64,000 bases of DNA, taken from assembly GCF_003076455.1 (NCBI RefSeq), contig NZ_CP020918.1, positions 2,309,501 to 2,373,500 on the forward strand, given 5' to 3'. Shown piece after piece: positions 27,140 to 42,513 of the stretch. Source of the stretch: Flavobacterium faecale (GTDB lineage: Bacteria > Bacteroidota > Bacteroidia > Flavobacteriales > Flavobacteriaceae). Under the pieces are notes generated by a model that was not told the origin of the DNA, did not search any database, and saw only the letters and a program-made list of their open reading frames with translations. The translations under genes and the position numbers were made by a program. Each line of letters opens with the position of its first letter. The first letter of the stretch is position 1.

Positions 27140-28036
27140 TTATTTTCTCAGAATAAAATTTAAAATTCTTGCAAATATATTTTTTTTCTCTTCTATTTGA
27201 GTTGCATTAAAATTTTCTTCTTGTGATTGGACTTTAGCAGTTTCAACTTTTCTAACGATAATTACTGGCTCATTTTTAATTTCAATTTTTGATTGTTTGG
27301 AACTTTCATTTTTTAATTGAAGTAACCTTTTTTCTTCTACTTTTCTTTCTCTCTCTATTTTTTGTTTTATATAATTCGGGTTGTGTAAAGTTCTTGCGTA
27401 TCTTTCTTTGTCAAAATATCCTGAAAGTTGTCTATATAGTTTATTTAAATCATTATCAAACTTTATTTCTTTATAAAGGTCGATTTCAATAGCGGCATAA
27501 TTATTATCTCTAAAAAATTGTTGTTTTGTTTTAGTTACTTTGTTTGTTTTATGAATTTCTATTATTAGAAATGAATCAACAGGTAATTCAAATTTGTTGT
27601 TTTCCTTTATCTTAGCATATAAGTCAGTTCTAAAAAGTCCATTTTCAAAAGGTTTTTCAATAAATATTTCAGAAAACATCAGAGTATCTTGTATTTCGCC
27701 AATCTTTAATTTTAATGACTTTTTATCGTAAATTATTTCTTTAGAAAGCTGATGTTCAATACTTTCTCCCGTTCCTGAATTTTCATTTCCACCACCGCCA
27801 TTTTTAAAAGCAAAATGAGGTGTTTTTGATTTTGTGTTGACAACGGCTTTCATTGGTGTGAAATGAGATAATGAATAATACTCACGATTTTCCCAAATTT
27901 TTGGAAATTTTGAATTTAACCCATTTTTCACATCAAAAATCGATACTATTTCACTATTTAAATTGTTTTCGAGGTGGGCATGGTATTTCATTAATTGATG
28001 TTTTTTTGTTTCAGTAGCGTTTTTTTGAAATAGCAT
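27140..28036 (-). CDS. Accessory protein with nuclease-like core (CoiA-like), 298 aa
   Basis: Residues about 90-205 look like a PD-(D/E)XK nuclease core: ESIEHQLSKEIIYDKKSLKLKI, then FRTDLYAKI, LIIEIHKTNKVTKTKQQFFRDNN, and AIEIDLYKEI. The order resembles competence CoiA-type or restriction-like nucleases: an H/E-containing first helix, an Asp before a strand, an E-x-K-like strand, and Gln/Lys. The C-terminal third is a charged Lys/Glu-rich helix ending in IFARILNFILRK, possibly an amphipathic membrane-contacting tail. I infer the nuclease fold only from this pattern. As a cargo unit of the island it could be a defence gene. Its stop lies 10 bp from a shared element terminus. Confidence 0.6.
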   Translation of the reverse strand: MLFQKNATETKKHQLMKYHAHLENNLNSEIVSIFDVKNGLNSKFPKIWENREYYSLSHFTPMKAVVNTKSKTPHFAFKNGGGGNENSGTGESIEHQLSKEIIYDKKSLKLKIGEIQDTLMFSEIFIEKPFENGLFRTDLYAKIKENNKFELPVDSFLIIEIHKTNKVTKTKQQFFRDNNYAAIEIDLYKEIKFDNDLNKLYRQLSGYFDKERYARTLHNPNYIKQKIERERKVEEKRLLQLKNESSKQSKIEIKNEPVIIVRKVETAKVQSQEENFNATQIEEKKNIFARILNFILRK

Positions 28037-28185
28037 ACAACGTCAGTCTGTGAAAAAACTTCCGTTTACTTCTCCCAAATATACTTAAATAATTAAAGTA
28101 CTCGACAGAAAAGTTATACACTTAACTATGCGGCATATCACATGAATATTGCGCAATCAGCTGTTTTATTCTAGTTTGGAGGCAA

Positions 28186-28695
28186 CTATTTTGCCTAAAG
28201 GATTTTGTAGAAATAAGGCATTACGGTTTTTTGAGTAGTAATTGGAAGCGAGAGAAATTAAAGGTTTTACAAGAAAAACTAAAAGTTAAACCCCAAATAA
28301 AGGTAGCTAAGGAATCGAAAATTAGAAAGTGTCAATGCTGTAAAACAGGCAATTTGCACACAATTCTAATGTTCGACCAGCGAGGTCCGCCTGTTTGGTA
28401 TCTTGGCAGTAGCCAAAAATCACCTGCCTGCAAAAGCTAGTTTTGTGGGTAAGGCATTTGTGTTAAACGGTGAAGGAAAACACTATAAAACCATCTTAAC
28501 GTACCCCTCAAAAAAAAGAGGACGTTTTGTCCTCCAAAATTACCTAAACTTGTTTATCGATATCCCCATAGTGGCGGAAGTAGAGGGGTGAGCCTGTCCT
28601 GAGCGATAGCCGAAGGGTTCAACTGCGGTTTCATTACTTCGTCCGTTCGCTATCGCTCGGGTGTTGGCTTTTCAAGTCCAACGAAACCTTTGCTG
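28186..28695 (+). mobile_element. Truncated copy of the IS91-like element (right end only)
   Basis: From about 28186 this segment matches the 3' part of the IS91-like element at 31880-32360: the end of the transposase gene, the GAGGAC/GTCCTC hairpin (28518-28534), then GTTTATCGATATCCCCATAG..., a GCCTGTCCTGAGCGATAGCC block, and the terminal GTTGGCTTTTCAAGTCCAAC hairpin (28661-28680). The left part is missing. The copy is oriented as the intact element and ends directly behind the Fic gene. Confidence 0.85.
28231..28440 (+). pseudogene. C-terminal relic of the IS91-like transposase
   Basis: It encodes SSNWKREKLKVLQEKLKV...ESKIRKC, as in the transposase at 30998-32032, but then continues with QCCKTGNLHTILMFDQRGPP and a short tail to a stop at 28440. 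The relic therefore preserves the longer C-terminus, including a CxxC pair (RKCQCCKTG), that the larger copy lost through a CAA-to-TAA change. Confidence 0.85.
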
Positions 28696-28705
28696 ATATG
28701 TGAGG

Positions 28706-29506
28706 TTATAATTTCTCCATCACTCTTTTTAATAAATATTTAGCCATTCCTTTTGCAAAATATTCTACTAATAACTCATCATTTTTATTTTGTTCGCATT
28801 TTACAATTGTACTTATATACTCTATCTGTTCTTCTTGTGTTACAATTTCGGGAAAAATAGGTGCACAATTATTTTTCATTAATATTGCTCCTACAATTAT
28901 TCTACAAACTCTCCCATTACCATCAGCAAATGGATGAATATCATTTAAAAATTTATTATGGAAATATGCAATTCTTGTAAGTAAATGTTTTTCAGCATCA
29001 TTATTGTCAATTTGGTTTATTCTGTCATTGAACATATCTATATATGATGCCATTATAAATTCTAAATTATAATGTGGTGCATATTCTTTATTTTCAAAAA
29101 AAGGTTCTCTTGATCCAACTGTCGGAATATTTCTATAATTCCCAACAAGTTCAGGTTTAAACTCAGTTTCCCAAGCTAATGGATTATTCATTAAACTTCG
29201 ATGAATATTTTTAATAGCATCTTCTGTTAATTGAAAATTTTGAAAATTATCTAAAACATTTTTTAAAACACTTTGATGTTCAGAAACATTCATTAGGGAA
29301 TTAAAATTAATACCTCTTATTGTTTCGTTATTTAGAAAACGAATTGTGTCTCCGTACTCTAATTTTGAATCTTCAACTCTTGCGGAATAAAATGTATAAT
29401 CATTTATAAGTGAAGACTTAAAATCTTCACCCCATTCTAATCTAGGAAATTTATTCTGAAATAATAAAAGAGCCTCATTAAATTTCAATAAGTAATTTGG
29501 AAGCAT
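28706..29506 (-). CDS. Fic domain protein
   Basis: 266 residues. The Fic core has the catalytic loop HPFADGNGRVCR (about 187-198, consensus HxFx[DA]GNGRxxR), complete for AMP transfer. An N-terminal inhibitory-helix-like motif reads SARVEDSKLEYG (about 38-49). In class II Fic proteins the consensus is [ST]xxxE[GN]; here Glu is kept but the next residue is Asp. A helix typical of Fic_N (LPNYLLKFNEALLLFQNKFP) starts the protein. The substrate is unknown. A 70-aa open frame (29512-29724) ends 5 bp before its start. The gene stop is next to the element terminus at 28661-28695. Confidence 0.88.
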   Translation of the reverse strand: MLPNYLLKFNEALLLFQNKFPRLEWGEDFKSSLINDYTFYSARVEDSKLEYGDTIRFLNNETIRGINFNSLMNVSEHQSVLKNVLDNFQNFQLTEDAIKNIHRSLMNNPLAWETEFKPELVGNYRNIPTVGSREPFFENKEYAPHYNLEFIMASYIDMFNDRINQIDNNDAEKHLLTRIAYFHNKFLNDIHPFADGNGRVCRIIVGAILMKNNCAPIFPEIVTQEEQIEYISTIVKCEQNKNDELLVEYFAKGMAKYLLKRVMEKL

Positions 29507-29511
29507 TAAAA

Positions 29512-29724
29512 TTATCCATTATATTTATTAAACATAAAACGTATCCAAACTTTAACATCGTGTGGGTAGGCGAAAAGAAGTTCGTCTTTTTTCATAAGCG
29601 TTTTACCAAAAAAGTATAATTTAAAATCACTTATAAAGGCACTAGGAATTGAATCAACTGCAACTAATTCTTTAGTCGTTGATAAATTACTCAAAAATAA
29701 TATGTCTTGCCTTGTAACTAACAT
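29512..29724 (-). CDS. Small protein upstream of fic, 70 aa
   Basis: A basic/aromatic small protein (DILFLSNLSTTKELVAVDSI, FISDFKLYFFGKTLMKKDE, DVKVWIRFMFNKYNG) with no signal or membrane segment. Its stop is 5 bp from the fic start, so the two are translationally close. It could be an antitoxin or accessory to the Fic protein, but it lacks the canonical SxxxEG antitoxin motif, and I do not recognise a family. Confidence 0.6.
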   Translation of the reverse strand: MLVTRQDILFLSNLSTTKELVAVDSIPSAFISDFKLYFFGKTLMKKDELLFAYPHDVKVWIRFMFNKYNG

Positions 29725-29813
29725 AATACAAATGTAATATATTTTTTATCTCAATTTCATTTAATTGTGATTTATTTCTATTTTCCGAGATGTTGTGAAA
29801 TAATCTTATATAT

Positions 29814-29941
29814 CGTCTTGGCGCTTGTAGTAGTTGGGGAATAAAGATGCGAGTTTTTTCCATTAAACACAATTTATCAAGTACAAAACCATTTTTAAAT
29901 TCAGCCAAATGCCCAAATCTTTTGCAAAACGGCTGTTGAAC
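29814..29941. repeat. attC-like palindromic site D (weaker copy)
   Basis: Left arm CGTCTTGGCGCTTGTAGTAG then TTGGGGA; right arm GCCCAAATCTTTTGCAAAAC then GGCTGTTGAAC, imperfectly complementary over about 25 bp. The left arm begins like site C (CGTCTTGGCGCTTG). The right boundary GTTGAAC fits the integron core GTTRRRY. The centre does not share the conserved block of sites A-C, so confidence is lower. Confidence 0.5.
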
Positions 29942-30257
29942 TAAACCTTCGGTAGTGTATTGAGTTAAATAGCAGTCCTTTGTAAAAGTAAATAAAAACT
30001 TTATAAGATGAATAAAAAAAACCACTAGAAGAATTAAAGTACAACAAAATCATCAATCAGGCCATACGAAACGTACCTGATTTTGAAGCCTTGTTGAATC
30101 GATTTGAGAGAACAATTTCGGTATTAGGACGCAGTCAAAGTACATTTTCCAACTACTCCCGCCATGTTGCTTCGATGGCGTTGCATTTTGGAAAGATTCC
30201 AACAGAATTGGATGTAGAGCAAGTACAGGAGTACTTGTTTATGCTGCAAAAACGATC

Positions 30258-30278
30258 CCTGCCTGGCCGGCAGGCAGG
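30258..30278. repeat. In-frame 21-bp palindromic repeat in the recombinase gene
   Basis: Arms CCTGCCTG and CAGGCAGG with the 5-nt loop GCCGG. It adds LPGRQAG between KRS and KTPSQ, where related recombinases have no such residues. The length of 21 keeps the frame. Confidence 0.75.
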
Positions 30279-30529
30279 CAAAACACCTTCTCAGACTTAC
30301 TTTAAACATTGTGTTTATGGACTGAGATTTCTACTCAAGTCCGAAGGATTGCCTTATGAGTATTTGCATTTACCTTCGATTAAGCACGAGAAAAAACTCC
30401 CTACCGTACTCAGTAAAGAAGAAGTTTGGCGGATGCTCAAGAGTTGTCATTTGCTAAAACACAAAGTCCTAATCGGACTTTTGTACGGCTGTGGACTTCG
30501 TTGCATGGAAGCGCGATCGGTGCGCTTGC

Positions 30530-30551
30530 AACCCCGATAGCTATCGGGGTT
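30530..30551. repeat. 22-bp perfect palindrome that breaks the recombinase gene
   Basis: AACCCCGATAG followed by its exact reverse complement CTATCGGGGTT. The net insertion is 20 bp and introduces the TAG stop that ends the first reading frame. Confidence 0.85.
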
Positions 30552-30692
30552 GATTTTGACCGTCAGCAACTCAAAGTAGTTCAGGGAAAAGGCAAAAAAG
30601 ACCGCTATGTGCCGCTATCAGAGCATCTTATTAGGGTACTAAAAGTATATATCGAAGCCGAAAAACCAAAAACCTACCTCTTCAACGGGCAA

Positions 30693-30739
30693 CCTGTAGC
30701 TCGTGCTGGAGGCGATACTTCGTCTACGCTCAGCACAGG
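30693..30739. repeat. Inserted repeat in the recombinase gene
   Basis: The block starts CCTGT and ends ACAGG, with an inner GTGCTG/CAGCAC pair and a TACTTCGTCTACGCTCAG core. It encodes PVARAGGDTSSTLSTG, which is absent at the same place in the intact recombinase at 41461-42513. Confidence 0.65.
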
Positions 30740-30997
30740 TTTTGACTCTCGTTATTCGCAACGTGGCGTGCAATGGGCAGTAAAACAAGCCAGTAAAGCT
30801 GCTGGCATCACCAAAGAGGTTTGCGTACACACGCTCCGACACACTTTTGCAACGCACTTACTCGAGGATGGACTCGATATTGTGAGCTTAAAAAACCTTT
30901 TGGGACACGAACAAATTGAGACCACAATGGAGTACTTGCACATCGCCCAACTCGACACTCAAAAAGCTTTTAGTCCACTCGATACTTTGTTTGCCAA

Positions 30998-32032
30998 GTG
31001 TCGCAAGAAGTAGCCTGCACTGAGCCAAGCCGAAGTGAAGTAGCCCATGTTTTAGAAAAACTCGGGACAAAGATTGAGAATTTAGGACTTAATACTTGGC
31101 AATTGCGCACCTTATCGGCAGTTCGTAGGTGTCGTACGGCGGCTTTGGGCGGGCATATTGATGCTTGTGATAGTTGCGGAAACATCAGTATTAGTTACAA
31201 CTCCTGCCGCAATCGGCATTGTCCTAAATGTCAAGGTAAAAACCGAGAAGATTGGATACAAGCACGGCAAAGAGAACTCTTACCCGTGCCGTATTTTCAT
31301 GTAGTTTTCACTTTGCCCGAAGGCATTAATCCGCTGGTGATAAAGGATCCAAGATTGGTGTATAATTTATTGTTCGAATCGGCTTGGGCGACGCTAAAGA
31401 CTTTTGGAGTAAGAAAAGAAATCCAATCTGGCATGATTGCTGTTTTGCACAGTTGGGGACAAAACCTGTCCTTGCATCCACACCTGCATTGCATTGTGCC
31501 TGGTGGTGGTGTGGACAAAGATGGTAACTGGAAAAACATTCGAGGAGATGGAAAATACCTCTACAATGTAAAAGCATTGTCAAAGATGTATCGAGGCAAA
31601 TTCTGTGATGCTTTGAAGCAGTGTGATCCCGATCAATACACCCGAGTGAAGAAACAACTTTGGGAGAAACCTTGGGTGGTATTTGCCAAGAAGCCTTTTG
31701 GAAATCCAAACTCTGTTGTTGAATATCTGGGGCGTTACACCCATAAAATCGCTATTAGTAACAACCGACTAAAAAGCATCGATGATCAAAATGTAAGTTT
31801 TCATTACAAGGACTACCGTCAAAATGGGCAAAGAAAGAGCATGACCCTCACACACGAGGAATTTATCCGCCGTTTTGCGATGCATATTTTGCCTAAGGGA
31901 TTTGTGAAAATACGGCATTACGGTTTTTTGAGTAGCAATTGGAAACGAGAGAAACTAAAGGTTTTACAAGAAAAACTAAAAGTCAAACCCCAAATAAAGG
32001 TAGCTAAGGAATCGAAAATCAGAAAGTGTTAA
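30998..32032 (+). CDS. IS91 family transposase (shortened by a stop)
   Basis: 344 residues from GTG 30998, overlapping the recombinase. The N-terminal zinc finger is CDSCGNISISYNSCRNRHCPKC (about 52-75, written here as seen). The HUH motif is in HPHLHCIVPGGG and the catalytic tyrosine region in EYLGRYTHKIAISNN. The relay FSFHYKDYRQNGQRKSMTLT-type block is also present. Rolling-circle transposases of this type move DNA next to their terminus. The gene contains an in-frame 30-bp insertion near its start (CTEPSRSEVA, see 31007-31045). Its TAA stop at 32030 replaces the CAA codon present in the relic at 28333, removing about 35 C-terminal residues with a CxxC pair. It is probably inactive. Confidence 0.88.
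   Translation: MSQEVACTEPSRSEVAHVLEKLGTKIENLGLNTWQLRTLSAVRRCRTAALGGHIDACDSCGNISISYNSCRNRHCPKCQGKNREDWIQARQRELLPVPYFHVVFTLPEGINPLVIKDPRLVYNLLFESAWATLKTFGVRKEIQSGMIAVLHSWGQNLSLHPHLHCIVPGGGVDKDGNWKNIRGDGKYLYNVKALSKMYRGKFCDALKQCDPDQYTRVKKQLWEKPWVVFAKKPFGNPNSVVEYLGRYTHKIAISNNRLKSIDDQNVSFHYKDYRQNGQRKSMTLTHEEFIRRFAMHILPKGFVKIRHYGFLSSNWKREKLKVLQEKLKVKPQIKVAKESKIRKC
31007..31045. repeat. 30-bp insertion with direct repeats at the transposase start
   Basis: GAAGTAGCC occurs at 31007-31015 and again at 31037-31045, 30 bp apart. Deleting one period turns MSQEVACTEPSRSEVAHVLEK into MSQEVAHVLEK, the expected start of this family. Confidence 0.75.
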
Positions 32033-32212
32033 TGCTGTAAAACGGGCAATTTGCACACAATTCTAATGTTCGACCAGCGAGGTCCGCCTGTTTGGTATCT
32101 TGGCAGTAGCCAAAAATCACCTGCCTGCAAAAACTAGTTTTGTGGGTAGGGCACGTATGCAATGATGTGAAGGAAAATACAATAAAACCAGCCTATTTAA
32201 GGCTCAAAAAAA

Positions 32213-32395
32213 AAGAGGACGCTTTGTCCTCTTAAATTACCTAAACTTGTTTATCGATATCCCCATAGTGGCGGAAGTAGAGCGGTGAGCCTGTCCTGAG
32301 CGATAGCCGAAGGGTTCAACCGCGGTTTCATTGTTGGCTTTTCAAGCCCAACGAAACCTTAGCTGTTCAAGCCCAACGAAACCTTTGCTGTTAGC
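32213..32395. repeat. Right terminus of the IS91-like element (copy R3)
   Basis: The terminator-like GAGGAC-GTCCTC hairpin, then GTTTATCGATATCCCCATAG, a GCCTGTCCTGAGCGATAGCC block, GGTTCAACCGCGGTTTCATT and the hairpin GTTGGC...GCCCAAC. The shared parts recur at 28518-28695 and 63315-63473, and the last 40 bp also at 27083-27125. In every case a minus-strand accessory gene ends within 5-15 bp of the terminus. Confidence 0.8.
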
Positions 32396-32404
32396 AGTAG
32401 TTGT

Positions 32405-32995
32405 TTATTCCATCAACACATTTTCTATTTTGAAATATCTTTCTGCAACTCTTTTAGGATTTAAAATTTCTTCATCACATTCTGTTGGTTTTTGCTTTCT
32501 AACCTTTATTGCATTAAAATAATCATTTTCTAATTGCTTTAAATTTTTAGCAGGACTTGATGCGCCAATGCTTATTTTGTCAATATCAATTTTTACATTT
32601 TCAAAAACACGTACGTTTTTAGAGACAGAATTTTCGTTTAGATAACTTAGGTCATAGCAACTTACGCAATCTCCGCTAAAACCACTTGGTATATTTCTAG
32701 CAAAGAAATTTAATTCATTAATTTTTTTTTGATTAGGTATTATGCTTCTATAATCACTAAGACATATTCCATACCATATTCCGGCTTTATCTTGGTTAAT
32801 ATCCATTATTATTCCAATATAATATTGCTTATCAATAAAAATTGATACAGCGTCTCCAAATTTATATTTAATATTTTCAGGTGTTATTCCATCCCAATTT
32901 GGTTTCATAATATCTGGATGAAAATCTTCCGATTTTTTAGTTTCACAGCTAAATATTAATAATGACAAAGTTAATAATAATAAAATATTTCTCAT
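32405..32995 (-). CDS. Hypothetical lipoprotein, 196 aa (island cargo)
   Basis: The lipoprotein signal ends LIFSC with Cys17. The mature part has a small beta-barrel-like segment (YKFGDAVSIFIDKQYYIGIIM) and a conserved-looking CVSCYDLSYLNE with a CxxC pair. The remainder is acidic and helical (LEDLKQLENDYFNAIKV-like), ending KRVAERYFKIENVLME. The function is unknown. It lies between attC-like site A (upstream) and the element terminus R3 (10 bp downstream of its stop). Confidence 0.7.
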   Translation of the reverse strand: MRNILLLLTLSLLIFSCETKKSEDFHPDIMKPNWDGITPENIKYKFGDAVSIFIDKQYYIGIIMDINQDKAGIWYGICLSDYRSIIPNQKKINELNFFARNIPSGFSGDCVSCYDLSYLNENSVSKNVRVFENVKIDIDKISIGASSPAKNLKQLENDYFNAIKVRKQKPTECDEEILNPKRVAERYFKIENVLME

Positions 32996-33021
32996 TAAAA
33001 TCTGATTTTTTGGTACAATTA

Positions 33022-33148
33022 CTGCTAACGTGTCGCGGCTTGCAGAAGTGGCGAACTTCGTGACCGATTATTTTCGGCTAAGATAAAATATCTTGCGAAA
33101 GATAAACGTGAATTTACCACATATTTCGCCATTTATGCAAACCGCTGT
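33022..33148. repeat. attC-like palindromic site A (interrupted by intron 1)
   Basis: Left arm CTGCTAACGTGTCGCGGCTT then GCAGAAGTGGCGAA (33022-33055). Right arm TTCGCCATTTATGCAAACCG then CTGT (33125-33148), continued after the intron by TAGCC at 35057-35061. Joined, the ends read GCTAAC...GTTAGC, and the arms pair over about 26 bp with bulges. The spacer keeps TATTTTCGGC and a GAATTTACCAC version of the shared AATTCCACTAAA block. With the intron removed the site is about 132 bp, within the size range of attC sites. Confidence 0.65.
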
Positions 33149-35056
33149 GTGTGCCCTGCATGAGCAGGAAGCAGATTGTAAATCGTTTGTTCACGATTCG
33201 AAATTAAACATTTTGAATTAGAAAACAAATCCTACAGTCTGATATTTTTCCAGAGGGTGCAAGTCCCTTATGAGCGGATTGAAAACCCGAATCATTAGTA
33301 CGTCGCAAGGTGGTTTATCGTGAGGTATGCACTGAAGGCAGCGAAACGACAAAATCCGGTACTGACGTACAGGAACGTCATATGAGGCAAGTTAACGAGG
33401 ATAAGCGTCCACAGCAACGTAACGTCCGAAGATTATCAAAATCGTTGATTTGTAGATGACGCAGGAATCGGAGGAAGGAAGAAGCTCTTACCGGGGGAGG
33501 TCTTGACAACTACGAGTTGGTTAGGTCAAGAAGTCAGCAGAAGTCATAGTACTTGTGGCAACGAGTTGCAAATAGAAACTGCATAGGTCTCACAATCAAG
33601 GAAGGACAGAACGCATTGAGGTTCTTAATTTTCAACGGAATGACGCAAGTTATAGCCCTGAAAAACAAGAACAGGTTAACCGATTAAAACAACAAAATGA
33701 TTGCACGAGTAGTACATCCTTACAATCTTCAAAAAGCATTGGAACATGTTATTTCCAATCGAGGCAGTGCAGGCGTTGATGGCGTAAAAGTCAGCCAACT
33801 CAAAGAAGGTTTTCCGAAACGAAAACCACAACTGCTAGAAGATATTGCAAACGGAAACTACTGCTCACAACCCATTTTGGGAGTAGAAATTCCTAAGGGG
33901 AACGGCAAAGTCCGTCTTTTGGGAGTTCCTACCACTACCGACCGAGTGTTGCAACAAGCCGTATCGCAGGTTATAGCACCATTATTCGAAACCGAGTTTA
34001 GTAGCAATAGTTTTGGATTTCGCCCCAACAAGAATGCCCGACAAGCCGTTGGACAATCACGGGACTACATCCATCAAGGGTTGAACCACATTGTGGACAT
34101 TGACCTCAAGAACTTCTTTGATGAAGTAGACCATTGTTTATTACTGAATTTAGTCTATCGAAAAGTGAAATGTAAAACTACGATGCGACTCATCCGAAAA
34201 TGGTTGCGTGCGCCAATACAAATCAAAGGAAAACTACAGAAAAGACGCAAGGGCGTTCCGCAAGGAAGTCCACTCAGTCCGTTATTGTCGAATATTCTAC
34301 TCCATGAATTGGACAAAGAAATGACAAGACGCAAATACAAATTTGTACGTTATGCCGATGATTTTAGTATTTATTGTACGAGCCACAACGGGGCAAAAGC
34401 GACAGCACAAGCACTTGTTAAATTCTTGAAAACAAAGCTCAAACTGACCATCAACGAGGAGAAAAGCGGGATAAAACGTCCTGTTCACTTCACGATTTTG
34501 GGATTCGGATTTGTGCCAACTTACAAGAAAGGAAGCAAGAACGATTATCAATTGGTAGTGGCAGAAAAAGCATGGAAGAAACTAAAAGAAAAGCTCAAAA
34601 GCATTAGCCGTAAAACCGCACCAGTCAAACTAGAAGACCGTATTGCCAAGATAAACGAAATTCAGCGAGGATGGTTAAACTATTTTCGGGGAACAAGTAT
34701 CATGGGAAAATTACGTGACATAGATGGCTGGTTAAGAAACCGACTTCGGTACTGCATTTGGCACGACTGGAAAAAACCCGAACGGAAAAGGAAAAACCTC
34801 ATACGACTAGGAATTGACCAAGACCACGCCTATGCATGGAGTCGGACTCGAAAAGGTGGTTGGGCGATTGCTCAGAGTCCAATTTTGGGGTCTACCATCA
34901 CTTTGAAGCGCTTAAAACAAAAAGGGTATCAATCATTAACCGATGTTTATATCGAACTTAACCCATCTCTTTGCGAACCGCCGAATACGTGACCCGTACG
35001 TTCGGTGGTGTGAGAGGCGCAGTCCGTCCTATTCGGGGCGGACCCGTCTACTCGAT
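33149..35056 (+). mobile_element. Group IIC intron, copy 1 (1908 bp)
   Basis: The boundaries follow from comparing two copies with different flanks: 5' GTGTGCCCTGC and 3' CTACTCGAT, fitting the group II GTGYG...AY ends. About 550 bp of structured RNA (domains I-III, including TACGTCGCAAGG and GGAGGTCTTGACAACTACG) precede the reverse transcriptase gene. Domain V and VI follow it: GCGAACCGCCGAATACGTGA and CCGTACGTTCGGTGGTGTGA, then GGCGCAGTCCGTCC...GGGCGGACCCGTCTACTCGAT. The insertion point is CTGT/T inside the right arm of site A. Class C introns that target attC sites are known to insert near TTGTT/T. The copy is identical in length and, as far as I compared, in sequence to 37921-39828. Confidence 0.9.
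33697..34992 (+). CDS. ltrA: Group II intron reverse transcriptase/maturase (class C)
   Basis: 431 residues encoded within intron 1. Reverse transcriptase blocks: GSAGVDGV, EIPKGNGKVRLLGVPTTTDR, NSFGFRPNKNARQAV, VDIDLKNFFDEVDH, GVPQGSPLSPLLSNILL, and the catalytic FVRYADDFSIYC (YADD). A maturase (X) domain follows, with WLNYFRGTSIMGKLRDIDGW and IWHDWKKPERKRKNLIRLG. There is no HNH endonuclease domain, as usual for group IIC. The protein splices the intron and drives its mobility. The amino-acid sequence is identical to the copy at 38469-39764, which implies recent transposition or gene conversion. Confidence 0.95.
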   Translation: MIARVVHPYNLQKALEHVISNRGSAGVDGVKVSQLKEGFPKRKPQLLEDIANGNYCSQPILGVEIPKGNGKVRLLGVPTTTDRVLQQAVSQVIAPLFETEFSSNSFGFRPNKNARQAVGQSRDYIHQGLNHIVDIDLKNFFDEVDHCLLLNLVYRKVKCKTTMRLIRKWLRAPIQIKGKLQKRRKGVPQGSPLSPLLSNILLHELDKEMTRRKYKFVRYADDFSIYCTSHNGAKATAQALVKFLKTKLKLTINEEKSGIKRPVHFTILGFGFVPTYKKGSKNDYQLVVAEKAWKKLKEKLKSISRKTAPVKLEDRIAKINEIQRGWLNYFRGTSIMGKLRDIDGWLRNRLRYCIWHDWKKPERKRKNLIRLGIDQDHAYAWSRTRKGGWAIAQSPILGSTITLKRLKQKGYQSLTDVYIELNPSLCEPPNT

Positions 35057-35185
35057 TAGCCGTTCGTCCTTTTTTCGCAGTGGTATTTCAAATGACAAAT
35101 CCTTGTCCAATTTTTATTTGAACAAGGATTTTTAGTTTACAAGTAAATAGTCAGGTAATACTTTATTTGTCTAATAATTTTTTAA

Positions 35186-35746: not shown

Positions 35747-35825
35747 AATTTTTTTATTTTTTTTAATGTTTAATTATGGTGTAAATTTATATAACTTTGC
35801 TTTATAAAAGATAGTAGTTACTTTT

Positions 35826-35847
35826 AGGTAAGTAGTTACCTGTAGGT
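35826..35847. promoter_or_regulatory. Operator-like dyads between yceI and hxlR
   Basis: AGGTAA-GTAG-TTACCT (35826-35841) is a perfect dyad, overlapped by ACCT-GT-AGGT (35838-35847). A further TTAC...GTAA pair reaches leftward to about 35819. It is a likely binding site of the HxlR protein for control of both genes (inference). Confidence 0.6.
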
Positions 35848-35871
35848 AAGTATTTTAAAAATCAACCTAAT

Positions 35872-36213
35872 ATGAATCAAAAAGAAGATATTTGCCAACA
35901 TAAATTAATGGTAACAAGAGATACATTAGAAGTAATACAAGGAAAATGGCGAATACCTATAATTATTGCTTTAACTTTTGGCGAAAAACGCTTTGGTGAA
36001 TTGCAAAGAGATATTGCCGACATATCTCCAAAAATGCTGTCGCAAGAATTGAAGGCTTTGGAAACGAACAAAATTATTACACGAACGCTTTATGATAGTA
36101 TGCCAGTAACTGTCGAGTATTCGCTAACACCATTAGGCAAATCAATGAAAAATTTGCTTAATGAAATTTTAAATTGGGGTGTTCATTTTCGGAAAGAAAT
36201 TATTGGAAAATAA
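35872..36213 (+). CDS. HxlR family winged-helix regulator
   Basis: 113 residues with the complete HxlR domain: CQHKLMVTRDTLEVIQGKWR, IPIIIALTFGEKRFGELQR, ISPKMLSQELKALETNKIIT, and VEYSLTPLGKSMKNLLNEI. The N-terminal Cys (EDICQHK) is the position used for redox or aldehyde sensing in several HxlR proteins. Its usual partner is the divergent neighbour, here yceI. It is the only cargo gene of the island on the plus strand. Confidence 0.92.
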   Translation: MNQKEDICQHKLMVTRDTLEVIQGKWRIPIIIALTFGEKRFGELQRDIADISPKMLSQELKALETNKIITRTLYDSMPVTVEYSLTPLGKSMKNLLNEILNWGVHFRKEIIGK

Positions 36214-36300
36214 ACTACTGAAATTTCAACGGGTTTTATTATAAAAAATTGACGGATTTGTGTGTCCGTTCAATGTCCGCTAGGTCGCTCACAGGATGAC

Positions 36301-36424
36301 GGCTAACGTTTTGCTGCTTTGAGATGGCTGGAAAATCGTAACCGCTCAATTTTCGGCTTAACGAAAACTTGATGCGGAACGATAATTCCACTAAATTCCA
36401 GCTATATCAAAACAGCGGTTGGCA
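36301..36424. repeat. attC-like palindromic site B (uninterrupted)
   Basis: Left arm GGCTAACGTTTTGCTGCTTT then GAGATGGCTGGAA (36301-36333); right arm TTCCAGCTATATCAAAACAG then CGGTTGGCA (36396-36424). The ends GCTAAC/GTTGGC face each other, and the arms pair over about 25 bp with a few bulged bases. The centre has ATTTTCGGCTTAACG and AATTCCACTAAA, shared with site C. The right boundary lies 10 bp from the stop of 36435-37769. Total 124 bp. Confidence 0.65.
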
Positions 36425-36434
36425 GATGTTTTTT

Positions 36435-37769
36435 TTACTCTACTTTTATAAGTTTTGTAATTTTTTCAACTAATTCCCCTATTTCAGATAAGTTAGAAGG
36501 TACACTTTTGGATTCTTTTGATGTTTTAGTTCTGTTTCTTAAAGGGTCTTTATGTATTTCTTCTAATGCAGTTTTGATATAATGTATGTATTCTTCATTA
36601 TTTTCTGTACCATTCTTTTTCAATTGCTCCGAAAAGCCAACTATTGATTTTGCTAAAACCATTTTATAAGCATAATCCTCAATAATATTTTTTTGCTTTG
36701 TATATTGGTTTGCACAAAATATTGCGCCAATAATAGGTAATGGTAATAAAGAAATTCGAGCAATTAATATTCCAATATCATTTGGTATTGTGTGTAAAAT
36801 CCAAATACCTAAACCAACTGTACCTAATAAACAAATTATTGCTCCAAAAATCCAACTTCCAAAGACCCATCTATTATCTGCATTTTCGTATTGAACTTGA
36901 AACGATGCGCTTATACCTTCAGCGGTTTTATAATTCAATGCTTTTTTGGCAGATTCAACAAGATTATTAGCTTCTGATAAAATTTTTTTTCTTTCAGTTT
37001 CGTAACTGATTAGTTTTTGGTTATTGTCGTTTGTTAAAACTTCCAATTCGCTTAATCGTTTTTCTCGTTCTTGAACTTTATTAGCAAAAGAAGTTATTAG
37101 CTTCTCATTGGATTTGCTTTCAGTCATTGAATTGACAATTTCTTCTAAATTATCGTCTGCTTTTTCTTTTGCTATTACTAAATCTTCATTGTATGATTTT
37201 AAAGATTCGGTTTGCTTTGTCAGTTCAAGTTTTTTCGCAATTATTGTTTCTAATTCAGTTTCAATTTCCTCCAATTTTTCGTTACTGGATTCTATATTTT
37301 CATTTATACTTTCATTATCTTTTTCAATTTCAGCTTTAATTTTTTTAACTTCATTTAATTCATCTTGGAGTTCAAGTTTAATTTTGGTAACGTTACTTAT
37401 TTCATTTTCAAACTCAATTTGCCTTTCAGAAATTCCTCTGACATTAAAATTCCGTGTAAGAATTTTTAATTCTTCAAAATGAGGAATGTAATTATTTGGA
37501 GATTCAAAATATGTATTTATAGAGTTTAAATAATTGTATATATTATTTCTTTCTGTATAAGTTGAAATAGCAACAAATCTATTTGGAGCTTTTGTCAGTG
37601 TTGAGATATCAATTAATAAAGTATCAAGACCTCCAACAATACCTTTGAAAGTATATTCATTTTCACTTCCGTAGGTGTTTGTTTTGAATTGGCTGTAATT
37701 TACAGATTTGATTTTCTCACGAATTTCATCTCGTTTTTCTCGAATATTTTTTATTGAAGTTAATTCCAT
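36435..37769 (-). CDS. Coiled-coil membrane protein of unknown function, 444 aa
   Basis: After about 115 residues of mixed structure (TNTYGSENEYTFKGIVGGLD, RFVAISTYTERNNIYNYLNS), residues about 118-280 form a long Glu/Lys-rich coiled coil. Two membrane helices follow (about 308-328, WIFGAIICLLGTVGLGIWIL; about 337-358, IARISLLPLPIIGAIFCAN), then a cytoplasmic helical tail (EDYAYKMVLAKSIVGFSEQL, HYIKTALEEIHKDPLRNRT). I do not recognise the family. It is a single-gene cargo unit between attC-like sites B and C. Its size and layout would fit a membrane-associated effector or scaffold, possibly in phage defence (inference from context only). Confidence 0.7.
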   Translation of the reverse strand: MELTSIKNIREKRDEIREKIKSVNYSQFKTNTYGSENEYTFKGIVGGLDTLLIDISTLTKAPNRFVAISTYTERNNIYNYLNSINTYFESPNNYIPHFEELKILTRNFNVRGISERQIEFENEISNVTKIKLELQDELNEVKKIKAEIEKDNESINENIESSNEKLEEIETELETIIAKKLELTKQTESLKSYNEDLVIAKEKADDNLEEIVNSMTESKSNEKLITSFANKVQEREKRLSELEVLTNDNNQKLISYETERKKILSEANNLVESAKKALNYKTAEGISASFQVQYENADNRWVFGSWIFGAIICLLGTVGLGIWILHTIPNDIGILIARISLLPLPIIGAIFCANQYTKQKNIIEDYAYKMVLAKSIVGFSEQLKKNGTENNEEYIHYIKTALEEIHKDPLRNRTKTSKESKSVPSNLSEIGELVEKITKLIKVE

Positions 37770-37800
37770 ATGTTAATTTCTGGTTTCTGCGGTAAAATAT

Positions 37801-37920
37801 CTGCCAACGTCTTGGCGCTTGGCGAGGTTGGGGACTTTATAGCAGAGTATTTTCTGCCGAAACGAAGATATGATAAAAAACGTTAATTCCACTAAAACCC
37901 CAATCTCGCCAAACGGCTGT
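37801..37920. repeat. attC-like palindromic site C (interrupted by intron 2)
   Basis: Left arm CTGCCAACGTCTTGGCGCTT then GGCGAGGTTGGGG (37801-37833); right arm CCCCAATCTCGCCAAACGGC then TGT (37898-37920), continued after the intron by TGTGC at 39829. Arms pair over about 24 bp, with the longest uninterrupted part TTGGCGAG/CTCGCCAA. The centre has TATTTTCTGCCGAAACG and AATTCCACTAAA, shared with site B. Confidence 0.7.
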
Positions 37921-39828
37921 GTGTGCCCTGCATGAGCAGGAAGCAGATTGTAAATCGTTTGTTCACGATTCGAAATTAAACATTTTGAATTAGAAAACAA
38001 ATCCTACAGTCTGATATTTTTCCAGAGGGTGCAAGTCCCTTATGAGCGGATTGAAAACCCGAATCATTAGTACGTCGCAAGGTGGTTTATCGTGAGGTAT
38101 GCACTGAAGGCAGCGAAACGACAAAATCCGGTACTGACGTACAGGAACGTCATATGAGGCAAGTTAACGAGGATAAGCGTCCACAGCAACGTAACGTCCG
38201 AAGATTATCAAAATCGTTGATTTGTAGATGACGCAGGAATCGGAGGAAGGAAGAAGCTCTTACCGGGGGAGGTCTTGACAACTACGAGTTGGTTAGGTCA
38301 AGAAGTCAGCAGAAGTCATAGTACTTGTGGCAACGAGTTGCAAATAGAAACTGCATAGGTCTCACAATCAAGGAAGGACAGAACGCATTGAGGTTCTTAA
38401 TTTTCAACGGAATGACGCAAGTTATAGCCCTGAAAAACAAGAACAGGTTAACCGATTAAAACAACAAAATGATTGCACGAGTAGTACATCCTTACAATCT
38501 TCAAAAAGCATTGGAACATGTTATTTCCAATCGAGGCAGTGCAGGCGTTGATGGCGTAAAAGTCAGCCAACTCAAAGAAGGTTTTCCGAAACGAAAACCA
38601 CAACTGCTAGAAGATATTGCAAACGGAAACTACTGCTCACAACCCATTTTGGGAGTAGAAATTCCTAAGGGGAACGGCAAAGTCCGTCTTTTGGGAGTTC
38701 CTACCACTACCGACCGAGTGTTGCAACAAGCCGTATCGCAGGTTATAGCACCATTATTCGAAACCGAGTTTAGTAGCAATAGTTTTGGATTTCGCCCCAA
38801 CAAGAATGCCCGACAAGCCGTTGGACAATCACGGGACTACATCCATCAAGGGTTGAACCACATTGTGGACATTGACCTCAAGAACTTCTTTGATGAAGTA
38901 GACCATTGTTTATTACTGAATTTAGTCTATCGAAAAGTGAAATGTAAAACTACGATGCGACTCATCCGAAAATGGTTGCGTGCGCCAATACAAATCAAAG
39001 GAAAACTACAGAAAAGACGCAAGGGCGTTCCGCAAGGAAGTCCACTCAGTCCGTTATTGTCGAATATTCTACTCCATGAATTGGACAAAGAAATGACAAG
39101 ACGCAAATACAAATTTGTACGTTATGCCGATGATTTTAGTATTTATTGTACGAGCCACAACGGGGCAAAAGCGACAGCACAAGCACTTGTTAAATTCTTG
39201 AAAACAAAGCTCAAACTGACCATCAACGAGGAGAAAAGCGGGATAAAACGTCCTGTTCACTTCACGATTTTGGGATTCGGATTTGTGCCAACTTACAAGA
39301 AAGGAAGCAAGAACGATTATCAATTGGTAGTGGCAGAAAAAGCATGGAAGAAACTAAAAGAAAAGCTCAAAAGCATTAGCCGTAAAACCGCACCAGTCAA
39401 ACTAGAAGACCGTATTGCCAAGATAAACGAAATTCAGCGAGGATGGTTAAACTATTTTCGGGGAACAAGTATCATGGGAAAATTACGTGACATAGATGGC
39501 TGGTTAAGAAACCGACTTCGGTACTGCATTTGGCACGACTGGAAAAAACCCGAACGGAAAAGGAAAAACCTCATACGACTAGGAATTGACCAAGACCACG
39601 CCTATGCATGGAGTCGGACTCGAAAAGGTGGTTGGGCGATTGCTCAGAGTCCAATTTTGGGGTCTACCATCACTTTGAAGCGCTTAAAACAAAAAGGGTA
39701 TCAATCATTAACCGATGTTTATATCGAACTTAACCCATCTCTTTGCGAACCGCCGAATACGTGACCCGTACGTTCGGTGGTGTGAGAGGCGCAGTCCGTC
39801 CTATTCGGGGCGGACCCGTCTACTCGAT
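37921..39828 (+). mobile_element. Group IIC intron, copy 2 (1908 bp)
   Basis: Same ends, same length and same internal layout as copy 1 (reverse transcriptase starts 548 bp from the 5' end in both). Insertion is again at CTGT/T in the right arm of an attC-like site (site C). The flanks differ from those of copy 1 except for a short GTTCG[TG]CCTTTT block after the 3' end, which therefore probably belongs to the target site family. Confidence 0.9.
38469..39764 (+). CDS. ltrA: Group II intron reverse transcriptase/maturase (class C), second copy
   Basis: 431 residues, identical to the protein at 33697-34992 over its full length. The YADD catalytic box, the maturase domain and the absence of an endonuclease domain are the same. 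Both copies are intact, so either could support mobility of both introns. Identity including non-coding parts indicates very recent copying within this island, and makes the 4.8 kb between the copies prone to deletion by homologous recombination. Confidence 0.95.
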   Translation: MIARVVHPYNLQKALEHVISNRGSAGVDGVKVSQLKEGFPKRKPQLLEDIANGNYCSQPILGVEIPKGNGKVRLLGVPTTTDRVLQQAVSQVIAPLFETEFSSNSFGFRPNKNARQAVGQSRDYIHQGLNHIVDIDLKNFFDEVDHCLLLNLVYRKVKCKTTMRLIRKWLRAPIQIKGKLQKRRKGVPQGSPLSPLLSNILLHELDKEMTRRKYKFVRYADDFSIYCTSHNGAKATAQALVKFLKTKLKLTINEEKSGIKRPVHFTILGFGFVPTYKKGSKNDYQLVVAEKAWKKLKEKLKSISRKTAPVKLEDRIAKINEIQRGWLNYFRGTSIMGKLRDIDGWLRNRLRYCIWHDWKKPERKRKNLIRLGIDQDHAYAWSRTRKGGWAIAQSPILGSTITLKRLKQKGYQSLTDVYIELNPSLCEPPNT

Positions 39829-39865
39829 TGTGCGTTCGGCCTTTTAAGTTTGAAATGTCTTTAAT

Positions 39866-40687
39866 TTAAATAGTTGTAACTGAATTAGCTAATCTTCTTT
39901 CGTTTCCTTGCCTTGTTGTATAGTAACGTTGCTCAATTCCAAAAAGTAATTTTTTTAGTTCATCTTCAGTTGAAATTGTAAAATTTTCGTCATTTTCGTC
40001 AAAGTTCAAATCTTCACAATACTCTCTGATATATATAAAAATCTCGCTTTTTTCTATAGGAGTAAATCTTTGTAAAGTTTCCATTGCCATTGCAATTCTT
40101 TTTCTGTTTGCTTTTTTTACGCTTTCTGCTGAATAATTAATATCAAGAGATATAAAGTCACTTAACAAAAACGCCTCTGTTTCTTCTTGAGTTGCTTCTT
40201 TATATAATTCATCAATTCCATTAAATATTGTTGTTAACGAAGTTAATCTTTTAAAATATAAAATATCTTCAGTTTTTATATAAATGGCGTCAGGATAATT
40301 ATTTATTACTATGATTGGTTCATTCACAACCAAAGTTGGTGCAATAGAACATGAAAAGTATTTTTTTTGTATTACTTGACTTGAAGTTAATTTCTGAAAA
40401 TAATAAATTCCTGTTTGATAGGCACATAAATAATTAATATTATTATAGGCTGTTACAGGAAGTTGATTATAATCTGTAGAAATAAATCGGTGCGTCAAAA
40501 AATCAATACAATATTCTTTTTCTGAAAATGCTTCAATTGCAAACCATTCATCATCTTCAAGTTTATAATCTGAATTGTATTCGATTGGATTATCTAAATC
40601 ATCAGGAAGAGCGAAAATTTCTTCGTTTGATATTACTTTAAAAAAATCTCCTGTTCTACCTTTTGTTTTTGCTAATAAGTGGTTCAT
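39866..40687 (-). CDS. Probable Kiwa component KwaB-like (DUF4868-like)
   Basis: 273 residues, soluble, with no signal peptide. The C-terminal half has the pattern I associate with DUF4868/KwaB: YIKTEDILYFKRLTSLTTIF, FNGIDELYKEATQEETEAFL, KANRKRIAMAMETLQ, ISTEDELKKLLFGIEQRYYT, and the terminal G-x-R-x-x-A-x-S motif in GNERRLANSVTTI. It is encoded 4 bp downstream of a multi-helix membrane protein resembling KwaA, in the kwaA-kwaB order of Kiwa anti-phage systems. The assignment is from memory of family patterns, not a search. It is the cargo unit closest to the intact recombinase, and its stop lies 37 bp from the right part of site C. Confidence 0.6.
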   Translation of the reverse strand: MNHLLAKTKGRTGDFFKVISNEEIFALPDDLDNPIEYNSDYKLEDDEWFAIEAFSEKEYCIDFLTHRFISTDYNQLPVTAYNNINYLCAYQTGIYYFQKLTSSQVIQKKYFSCSIAPTLVVNEPIIVINNYPDAIYIKTEDILYFKRLTSLTTIFNGIDELYKEATQEETEAFLLSDFISLDINYSAESVKKANRKRIAMAMETLQRFTPIEKSEIFIYIREYCEDLNFDENDENFTISTEDELKKLLFGIEQRYYTTRQGNERRLANSVTTI

Positions 40688-40691
40688 ATTT

Positions 40692-41255
40692 TTAATTTTC
40701 TTGGTCTATAAAAGTGAAGTCATTAATTCGTTTAAGTTTTGGAAGGTTTATTTTCCTTGGGTCTTTAAGTTCTTTTCTTGAGATAAGGAAAATTTTTATG
40801 TTTGTAGCTGTAGTTAAATAATAAAAATGATATCCAAAAATCAGAAACAATGGATTGAAATATAGAGTTTGTGATAGAAATGTGAACAAAAATAAAATCA
40901 CAAAAACAAAAATTAAAGTGTCACAATACGGTACACTTAATGCTACGAAAAAATAGCCTAAATAACTTGGTAAATAAGCGTTATTAGCTTGTTCTATTTC
41001 CTTAATTGCTGAAATGCCATTTTCAATTTCTATGCTTTCGTCAATTAGTTTTGTTGATAAAAATAAACTTAAATAAGTAAAAAGAACTGGTATAGCAAAA
41101 TATATTGCGTAAGAAACAAAATGCGGTAAATTAAAAATATATACACAAAAATGATTTATTAGTATTTGACTTTTGACTAAATAAACTACTATAATTAATG
41201 AAGTCGCATTGAATGTTAAAAATAGACGAAATAGTAAGTTTATAATTCTATACAT
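40692..41255 (-). CDS. Probable Kiwa component KwaA-like membrane protein
   Basis: 187 residues from ATG 41255; a TTG at 41309 would add 18 non-conserved residues. There are about four membrane helices (RIINLLFRLFLTFNATSLII, VSYAIYFAIPVLFTYLSLFL, YLGYFFVALSVPYCDTLIFV, IFVFVILFLFTFLSQTLYF). After the last comes the well-ordered FNPLFLIFGYHFYYLTTATN, then KIFLISRKELKDP and RINDFTFID. The size, four-helix topology and C-terminal block match my recollection of KwaA, the membrane subunit of Kiwa. The partner follows 4 bp downstream. An unrelated small membrane protein remains possible. Confidence 0.6.
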   Translation of the reverse strand: MYRIINLLFRLFLTFNATSLIIVVYLVKSQILINHFCVYIFNLPHFVSYAIYFAIPVLFTYLSLFLSTKLIDESIEIENGISAIKEIEQANNAYLPSYLGYFFVALSVPYCDTLIFVFVILFLFTFLSQTLYFNPLFLIFGYHFYYLTTATNIKIFLISRKELKDPRKINLPKLKRINDFTFIDQEN

Positions 41256-41376
41256 GATTTTGTTTAATTTAATATTATATTCTATCTGTTTCAACAGGCT
41301 GACGCACAACTCTTTAATATACGCAACTCTATTAATTGAAATATATTTAAAGTATTGATTTTTAGCTTTTTAATTC

Positions 41377-41417
41377 TGACAACATGAAAAAACGCATTGC
41401 GTTTTTTCATGTTGTCA
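41377..41417. repeat. 41-bp perfect palindrome between recombinase and first cargo unit
   Basis: TGACAACATGAAAAAACGCA, one T, then the exact reverse complement, 20 bp per arm. It lies 44 bp beyond the recombinase stop (minus strand) and 122 bp before the first cargo start. On the minus strand no T-run follows, so it is not a standard terminator. Its position corresponds to where a primary recombination site would sit in an integron. Confidence 0.7.
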
Positions 41418-41460
41418 AATTCAAGTTTGCGTTCATTTTCCAAAAATAGGAAAAATTGTA

Positions 41461-42513
41461 TTAGAGATTGTCCAAAGGGCTAGTTATTTTTCTTAAATTT
41501 TTGTCAGTCACTTCGGTATAGAGTAAAGTTGTTTTAATATCCTTGTGTCCCAAAAGTTCTTGTATGAATCGGATGTCGGTGCCTTGCTCCAATAAATGTG
41601 TGGCGTAGCTATGTCGCAAACTATGTATTCCTACAGTTTTGTTTATTTTTGCTTTTAGCATGGCATTTTTAAAGACCTGTTGTGCACTGCGTACACTATA
41701 TTGACCACCATATTGCCCTTCAAATAAATATATTTGTGGTTTGTATTCGATAAAATAGGAGCGGAGTTGCCCCAAAATACTCTCGGGTAAATTCACATAT
41801 CGGTCTTTTTTGCCTTTGGCTCTTTCTATAAATACCTGCATCGATTTACTGTCTATATCGGTTATTTTTAGTTTTACAATTTCAGATACTCTTAATCCAA
41901 GACCGTAACAAAGTTTTAGCATGGTGTTGTGTTTGATATTTGGGGTAGCGTTGAATAATTTTTTGATATCGGCTGGAGCTATAACTTTGGGGAGTTTTAT
42001 GGGCATTTTTGGACGTGGCAATTCAATCAAAAAACGTTCTTGTCTAAGAACTTTTTCATAATAAAATTTAATAGCATTTATGCGACTGTGTATGGTTGAC
42101 TCGGATAGTTTCACCTCATTGATGCAATACAAAATATAGTTGCGTATGTCTTCTATTGTACAAGTTTGTGCCTGCGTTTGGTTCAAGTAACATAGGTAAA
42201 TACCAAATTCATTGCGATAGGTTTTTAAGGTTGCACTGCTGTAACCCATTAGTTGTATCTGTTCAATAAAACGTTTTAAGGCAATTTGATTTTCTGTTTG
42301 AATTTGGGATAATGCCGATTTTCCTTTATTACCTTCAATTTTAAATCGAATTCTGTTTTCTGCGGTATCGGGAAGATGCCAAGCTACTAATGAGGAACTC
42401 CATCTAGCGCCCTGAATTTGCTTGATACGTGTGATGAGTTCTGTGTTTTTTTGGAAATAAACGGCGATTCTGCTTTCGCTTTTGTGTTTTATTACATTTG
42501 CTGACCACTTCAT
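41461..42513 (-). CDS. Tyrosine recombinase/integrase (intact)
   Basis: 350 residues from ATG 42513 (MKWSANVIKHKSESRIAVYF), the usual start of this Bacteroidota family. A frame extending to 42567 adds 18 unlikely residues. The N-terminal domain contains ARWSSSLVAWHLPDTAENRI and is followed by a SAM-like core-binding domain (about 75-165). The catalytic domain has Arg in GLGLRVSEIVKL, GKKDRYVNLPES, HSLRHSYATHLLEQ (HxxR), LLGHKDIKTTLLYTEV (His and nucleophile Tyr). It lacks the extra helical insertion that defines IntI integrases, so by sequence it is XerC/D-like. It lies at the upstream end of the cargo array on the same strand as nearly all cargo genes, which makes it the best candidate to move them. 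Confidence 0.9.
   Translation of the reverse strand: MKWSANVIKHKSESRIAVYFQKNTELITRIKQIQGARWSSSLVAWHLPDTAENRIRFKIEGNKGKSALSQIQTENQIALKRFIEQIQLMGYSSATLKTYRNEFGIYLCYLNQTQAQTCTIEDIRNYILYCINEVKLSESTIHSRINAIKFYYEKVLRQERFLIELPRPKMPIKLPKVIAPADIKKLFNATPNIKHNTMLKLCYGLGLRVSEIVKLKITDIDSKSMQVFIERAKGKKDRYVNLPESILGQLRSYFIEYKPQIYLFEGQYGGQYSVRSAQQVFKNAMLKAKINKTVGIHSLRHSYATHLLEQGTDIRFIQELLGHKDIKTTLLYTEVTDKNLRKITSPLDNL

Follow-up and report, generated by a model that had tools for sequence, protein, structure and literature searches.

Crossover in integrons is described as taking place between the G and the TT of the sequence GTTRRRY (PMC3518468); each cassette therefore carries its own TTRRRY start and RYYYAAC end, which are expected to match each other, and the two ends of one array site belong to different cassettes. 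The I2 helix of the integron integrase IntI is described in PMC7790495 as necessary for cassette capture and absent from any other protein, and IntegronFinder is reported to call an integrase only by an IntI-specific profile (PMC9668308). Integrons have been reported from Bacteroidota (PMC8618304) or the Bacteroidetes/Chlorobi group (PMC2426708), the complete integron given for Bacteroidetes proper in the account of the IntegronFinder 2.0 survey of 2022 being that of Salinibacter ruber (PMC9024848). Here, a stretch of 64,000 nucleotides from Flavobacterium faecale (contig NZ_CP020918.1, positions 2,309,501 to 2,373,500 of the forward strand; hereafter the window, with coordinates counted from its first letter) was analysed, in which the region at 27-42 kb very probably constitutes an integron-like array of four cassettes with G^TT edges, three closed by a hairpin site of ~125 nt and the fourth by the beginning of such a site, likely inserted at an attI-like sequence at 41310 by an adjacent tyrosine recombinase that lacks I2. 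Because the tests applied below find, extrahelical bases aside, the build of an integron and the protein feature of the integron integrase is missing, the locus is, judged by sequence, an integron-like system with a distinct integrase. No published description of such a system was found in a literature search that covered subscription papers barely and had preprints outside its scope.

Organisation of the array

Read along the minus strand in order of falling coordinates, the window carries the recombinase, 150 bp, cassettes 1-4, an IS91-like element, site D, a Fic gene, an element remnant and an orphan gene. In the following, R' denotes the GTT end and R'' the AAC end of a site. The features of the array itself are:

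41461-42513, minus: tyrosine recombinase of 350 residues, the proposed cassette integrase, without the IntI-specific insertion and with an extra N-terminal domain
41308-41326, minus: attI-like core TTGCGTATATTAAAGA^GTT, with predicted crossover between 41310 (G) and 41309 (T)
37808-41309, minus: cassette 1, with a kwaA-like gene (40692-41255), a kwaB-like gene (39866-40687), site A and intron 2
37921-39828, plus: group II intron copy inserted at GCTGT^T in R'' of site A and encoding a 431-residue maturase (Rfam RF02001/RF01998)
37803-37920, minus: site A, attC-like hairpin, with R'' completed at 39829-39834 past the intron (model match span 37803-37930)
36307-37807, minus: cassette 2, encoding a 444-residue protein of unassigned function (36435-37769), with site B
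36302-36428, minus: site B, intact attC-like hairpin
33029-36306, minus: cassette 3, with yceI (35186-35746, minus), hxlR (35872-36213, plus), site C and intron 1
33149-35056, plus: group II intron copy (RVT_1 and GIIM), inserted at GCTGT^T in R'' of site C
33024-33158, minus: site C, an attC-like hairpin interrupted by the intron
32387-33028, minus: cassette 4, with a gene for 196 residues (32405-32995), then R'' and the first site bases (CTGCTAACAGC), cut by the IS91-like element

The genes, the sites and their orientation broadly agree with an earlier reading of the window from its sequence (the first-pass annotation), with three corrections. The plus strand, said there to hold hxlR only, also holds the intron and IS91 genes; the units, drawn from stop to stop, actually run from G^TT to G; and the two open reading frames (ORFs) at 39866-41255 belong to one cassette, whose products match the Kiwa defence proteins KwaA (2.2e-12; 40692-41246 scanned) and KwaB (4.2e-14). 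The cassette 2 protein matches the PADLOC model DruC weakly (7.6e-7), and Pfam matches to YceI and HxlR were obtained for cassette 3, where the gene of the HxlR regulator is divergent from yceI.

Structure of the sites

The loop of sites A and B served as the first search pattern and matched 19 of 150 genomes, that of F. faecale included. Six of the 30 loci read (L008, L011, L012, L013, L016 and L019) were matched by the pattern only and were judged chance occurrences, having no site context; a covariance model was therefore used. Model R1 was built from 21 sites, B among them, and the broader model R2 from 101 matches, A, B and C included, covering two sub-types, one of which has a conserved terminal block of 46-47 nt. 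Sites A, B and C score 85.9, 140.8 and 47.0 bits with R1 and 100.6, 128.6 and 80.4 bits with R2. In R1, a site opens with YAAC and one free base, followed by a 10-bp stem, an internal loop and a second stem; beyond the terminal block come the return arms, then five free bases and GTT. The arms covary: across the 21 sites, 90.7% of cells are paired and 73 are doubly changed, compared with a mean of 22.5 after shuffling and at most 15 in slid registers. The palindromic AAC...GTT sites with pairing arms that the first-pass annotation had reported as A-C, and the weaker one that it had called D, were recovered. As in integrons, sites bounded by AAC and GTT fold into a hairpin; the end of AAC lies a median of 18 nt from the stop codon.

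The stem contains strand-polar positions when read on the gene strand (189 distinct sites): T.G at position 5 in 59%, A.C at position 11 in 31% and A.C at position 14 in 75%, the last being Watson-Crick paired in 7%. In 124 of the 189 sites the complementary (bottom) strand has the greater stability, the median difference being 0.8 kcal/mol. In integrons, extrahelical bases and L boxes set the bottom strand; here the stem has the T.G and A.C positions and a small bottom-strand bias, and unpaired bases of the attC type were not demonstrated. At locus L145, four sites share the unusual end GTTCAGCAAGAT, which may be an artefact of the rule used for finding ends.

Complementarity of cassette ends and copied cassettes

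The two ends of a unit were scored as matching when at least 6 nt agreed beyond GTT/AAC. The first set comprised 97 of 105 R1 matches, after exclusion of three cut by contig ends and five that were weak or on the opposite strand (site D among them), and the second set 128 of 132 matches in loci L131-L150, after exclusion of one cut match and three opposite-strand echoes. Matching ends were found in 53 of 76 units of the first set, 84 of 106 of the second (57/68 at the rank of genus, 19/25 of class and 8/13 of phylum) and 33 of 45 from named genomes, giving 170 of 227 in total; the first-set count, like that of the cassette-copy comparison, contains nine copies of three cassettes from one genome. 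Shuffled units gave means of 2.1-2.6 of 6 in the first and second sets. Comparisons within single sites passed in 3 of 97 and 3 of 85 instances (6/182), or in 8 of 128 at a laxer 5-nt cut. With introns excluded, all four window cassettes have complementary ends; counting GTT, the match spans 9, 10, 9 and 10 nt in cassettes 1 to 4. R' and R'' are complementary across the cassette, with G^TT edges, as in integrons.

For the cassette-copy comparison, nine further sites were added to those of the two sets. Genome G045 carries, on one contig, an array of about 46 kb in which all array sites were found on one strand; cassettes of 715, 732 and 754 bp each occur there at three places with 99.7-100% identity and different neighbours. 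Identity stops at the G|TT edges, bar shared bases (CG before and TT after the edge), except that it runs 11 nt past the edge of the 732-bp cassette, the three cassettes that follow its copies beginning alike. As in arrays of one orientation, 131 of 143 longest ORFs lie in the cassette orientation.

The attI-like core and the geometry of the arrays

The start of cassette 1 was placed where 9 nt, counting GTT, are complementary to R'' of site A. The first-cassette start was found by complementarity at 23 of 25 loci, 44-222 nt past the recombinase stop (15 of them at 92-104 nt), and in 28 of 40 named loci, where its distance from the recombinase edge is 91-561 nt. A core common to the flanks, TTGCGTATATTWRNGA^GTT, was obtained from 46 of these 51 and the window. 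The core alignment of 47 rows comprises 27 of the 28 near matches from named loci (one duplicate having been removed), 19 of the 23 flanks of the 25-locus set and the window; L037, L043, L055 and L059, whose flanks are without the core, were excluded, which sharpens the consensus. Within one recombinase group (15 sequences), the arms of the attI flank covary, with a kept double change in 8 of 9 pairs. As far as sequence can tell, an attI adjoins the integrase gene as in integrons.

Sites were present at 40 of 80 named loci (L236-L315), with the array on the 3' side of the recombinase, as in the window, at 17 and on the 5' side, divergent, at 23. Their polarity is nearly uniform, 84 of 85 sites pointing away from the recombinase. 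Between recombinase and attI in the window lies a 27-bp inverted repeat, 89% complementary (41370-41424), perhaps a terminator.

The recombinase family

The closest solved protein by sequence is IntI4 of Vibrio cholerae (2A3V), to which the recombinase aligns in two pieces that flank the insertion of IntI. The spacing from K to HxxR is 64-65 residues in all 38 family members, some of which have no site in the stretch read, as against 106 in 14 of 14 IntI and 70-72 in 16 of 16 Xer proteins; about 41 residues of IntI are absent from all 38, and the annotation of a recombinase without the IntI-specific insertion is borne out by this spacing. I2 is the part of IntI that we take to lie in the K-to-HxxR stretch. 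R208, K233, K235, H297, R300 and Y332 do not vary among 59 aligned sequences, and H323 hardly varies; these are presumably the catalytic residues, and they are present in the window recombinase, whose frame is intact.

Ahead of the SAM domain, most family members have 65-118 residues, compared with 2-61 in IntI and 0-37 in Xer. An AlphaFold model built from 21 close sequences was too poor (predicted local distance difference test score 68) and was rebuilt from 59 sequences, predicting the N-terminal domain as strand-strand-helix-strand-strand-helix. No Pfam match was obtained for this domain; no fold search was run with the domain alone.

In the tree, the recombinase falls outside a clade (support 99) made up of 16 housekeeping Xer proteins. 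IntI (support 99-100) groups with the array recombinases, which make up two clades, and the trees give no firm branching order for IntI and these clades; a branch with IntI and Xer on one side has support 62, which neither shows nor rejects an order of IntI relative to the array clades. Of the 14 recombinases of divergent geometry included in the tree, 13 make up a single clade (support 98).

Several family members are unusual. L055, L056 and L058 have N-terminal extensions, with total lengths of 552-584 residues, and in L303 (Flavobacterium columnare) a stop codon interrupts the recombinase reading. A metagenome bin labelled Phycisphaerales (L273) contains a recombinase and two sites, possibly on a misbinned contig. 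IntI (E<=1e-60) and a relative of the recombinase (E<=1e-50) occur together in 27 of the 392 phylum genomes surveyed.

Group II introns

Both window introns are 1908 nt long, 100% identical and opposite to the cassettes, and lie, as the first-pass annotation had noted of two sites, within A and C. The resident intron is present in five identical copies in the genome, all of them in R'' of one of the sites described here, at CCGCTGT^T or CGGCTGT^T, and opposite to the cassettes, which is the association of group IIC-attC introns with their sites. Such introns are reported to insert in attC at TTGT/T (PMC7923331), compared with CTGT/T here; they agree further in the bottom strand used and differ in that the host sites here are not classical attC sites and the intron here is known as group II.

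Other elements of the window and other arrays in the genome

Beyond cassette 4, the following features lie in the window:

30091-32390, plus: IS91-like element, left edge undefined, with a Xer-like recombinase in two ORFs (30091-30540 and 30426-31013), a transposase (30998-32032) and a hairpin terminus
29809-29945, minus: site D, decayed attC-like site (R2 31.8 bits, E 1.5e-4; R1 16.3 bits, E 0.29)
28706-29506, minus: Fic-domain gene belonging to a decayed unit, with its end abutting an IS91-like terminus (Pfam Fic 2.1e-12; PADLOC PDC-S04/SoFic)
28198-28695, plus: truncated second IS91-like copy (repeats D2/D3, 91-96% to 31895-32332)
27080-28036, minus: last unit, a 298-residue orphan gene (27140-28036) with a third IS91-like terminus (27080-27126, repeat family D4)

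Site D is without a 3' GTT and is a decayed site, and the orphan gene has no Pfam match. The whole IS91-like element, of which two remnants are also present, matches Y2_Tnp (4.7e-61), Zn_Tnp_IS91 (2.2e-32) and Phage_integrase in Pfam. A terminus shared between units had been proposed; it does recur at unit ends, but its nature is that of the hairpin end of this element. The termini at 28694, 32389 and 27121 lie at or near AACAGC-like bases, with which a site opens, and the element may therefore target these sites.

Elsewhere in the genome, where 13 sites were found in all at E<=1, a second array (L316, C1:3776000-3787000) has at its upstream end a broken member of the recombinase family; it contains three sites and a single intron copy. 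A third group (L317, C1:614000-624000) comprises two clear sites, a weak one and an intron copy; no recombinase was found in that stretch by tblastn.

Distribution, cargo and alternative explanations

The predicted arrangement recurs across the phylum Bacteroidota, with sites in hosts that include Flavobacterium, Pedobacter, Runella, Arcicella, Chryseobacterium, Winogradskyella, Maribacter, Sphingobacterium, Parapedobacter and Odoribacter. Sites were detected in 137 of 392 phylum genomes, with at most 8 candidates scored per genome. Recombinase and sites were found together in 78 genomes, sites only in 59, the recombinase only in 35 and neither in 220, an odds ratio of 8.3 that ignores kinship and is based on a recombinase cut (E<=1e-50) that admits shorter relatives; the proposed co-occurrence was thus seen in 78 of 113 recombinase-bearing genomes, in addition to the adjoining position with fixed polarity. 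Within the genus, all 13 recombinase-bearing genomes have sites. The first-pass annotation had named, as an outcome speaking against mobility, palindromes whose neighbouring genes never differ. Instead, the sites flank unlike genes: among 95 cassette proteins (of 125 eligible ORFs) 83 Pfam families were matched, the commonest in two proteins, and several proteins match anti-phage defence models (AIPR, GmrSD, AbiU and 4TM effector).

Four other explanations were weighed. The one that survives best, at odds that we nevertheless regard as small, is that the sites are acted on by a different recombinase of the host, such as XerC/XerD, with the adjacent one only regulating or hitch-hiking. Arrays do occur in genomes where the recombinase was not found, and the attI core presumably resembles a dif half-site. 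However, polarity is fixed and attI lies beside the recombinase in two geometries, and no site at E<=0.01 was found within 1.5 kb of any of 20 housekeeping Xer loci (best E 0.042), in contrast to 16 of 30 loci of the recombinase family (15 on the 3' side on the same strand, and L038 on the 5' side, divergent).

Somewhat less probable still is that the sites are ordinary attC sites, in clusters of attC sites lacking integron-integrases (CALIN), moved by a true IntI in trans with the neighbouring recombinase as a passenger. The AAC/GTT ends, the anatomy of the cassettes and their G^TT edges match those of attC, and IntI over the TIGR02249 cut-off is present in 107 of 392 phylum genomes, all the listed carriers but one (G183) being outside the class of the window. 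An integrase in the strict sense, that is, IntI over this cut-off, was found in none of 13 site-bearing genus genomes tested, however; sites occur in 25 of 109 IntI genomes as against 112 of 283 others (odds ratio 0.45, kinship likewise ignored) and within 1.5 kb of none of 20 IntI loci, and the attI core adjoins the I2-less recombinase.

We consider it very unlikely that movement was once real and is now over, with a relic recombinase that no longer recognises the sites: of the window sites, D is decayed, an element has cut that of cassette 4 and introns interrupt A and C, and the second array of the genome has a broken recombinase, but the window recombinase is intact with its catalytic residues and near-identical cassette copies elsewhere imply recent movement. 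That the hairpins are fixed terminators or repetitive extragenic palindrome (REP)-like elements, copied by ordinary homologous recombination, was rejected as next to inconceivable despite their position directly behind stop codons, since ends pair across the unit and rarely within a site, the G|TT limits of the copied blocks fall between unlike sites and the attI core is common.

Several observations weigh against an integron-like array served by the adjacent recombinase. The 6-nt test is failed by 57 of 227 units; no near-full-length cassette among the units compared is common to two genomes, all 9 similar pairs lying within one genome; and relatives of the genes of cassettes 2-3 occur at 7 loci, of which one has a site. 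Complementarity gave no attI at 2 of the 25 loci of the one set and at 6 of the 40 named loci; another 6 named loci point 1.3-4.0 kb away (read as a start after an unseen earlier site), and 4 of 23 flanks of the 25-locus set are without the core. No recombinase at E<=1e-50 was found in 59 of 137 site-bearing phylum genomes, nor in 9 of 22 in the genus, one of which (G496) has a large array, and 35 of 113 recombinase-bearing genomes are without a site, the co-occurrence statistics being subject to the limits on kinship and candidate number given above. Finally, I2 is held in the cited description to be necessary for capture.

Discussion

An integron-like cassette array beside a recombinase, as proposed in the first-pass annotation, is favoured by the complementarity of cassette ends, the G|TT-edged copies, the attI core and the polarity of the sites; the first two, together with the location of attI from complementarity, are support that the annotation had not foreseen. 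The recombinase at 41461-42513 presumably performs the cassette reaction. Two sites would recombine at G^TT to yield a cassette circle, the site of which would fold as a single-strand hairpin, probably of the bottom strand, because this strand is slightly more stable and is used by the introns. The I2-less recombinase would then join the folded site to the double-stranded attI, so that new cassettes would enter next to the recombinase. Candidates for the means by which a second strand exchange would be avoided without I2 are the extra N-terminal domain and the strand-polar stem mismatches.

With chromosomal integrons of the Vibrio type the system shares short cassettes mostly of one orientation, a site behind the stop codon, AAC...GTT boundaries, long arrays, ends that pair across the cassette, G^TT edges, an attI beside the recombinase and group II introns in the sites. 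It differs in a recombinase without the IntI insertion and with an extra N-terminal domain, in an attI core of its own, and in sites with a stem of their own in which T.G and A.C positions are frequent; one sub-type of the sites also has a terminal block that is conserved. Like CALIN, some genomes have arrays with no recombinase found; unlike CALIN, 13 of 14 genus genomes with at least 8 sites have a dedicated recombinase. XerC/XerD-dif and pdif modules are presumably akin in their related tyrosine recombinases and in dif being AT-rich like the attI core, but we take their sites to be short and paired, whereas those here are long, folded cassette-end sites, and the housekeeping Xer proteins are a clade apart. 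GInts likewise have tyrosine recombinases; what we draw on from PMC5385486 describes them as genomic islands, with no cassette array mentioned there.

That these arrays represent a second, phylum-wide integron lineage of Bacteroidota without I2, older than or the source of the IntI integrons, to which I2 was added later, is a tentative idea that we think rather less likely to hold than to fail. If a natural cassette system without I2 is real, it would overturn the necessity of I2 or show a second solution, and the origin of single-strand recombination would become directly testable. Integrase calling relies on an IntI-only profile and one Bacteroidetes integron is named, as set against sites in more than a third of the phylum genomes; a widespread gene-exchange platform, with defence-like and many unknown genes, may therefore be overlooked.

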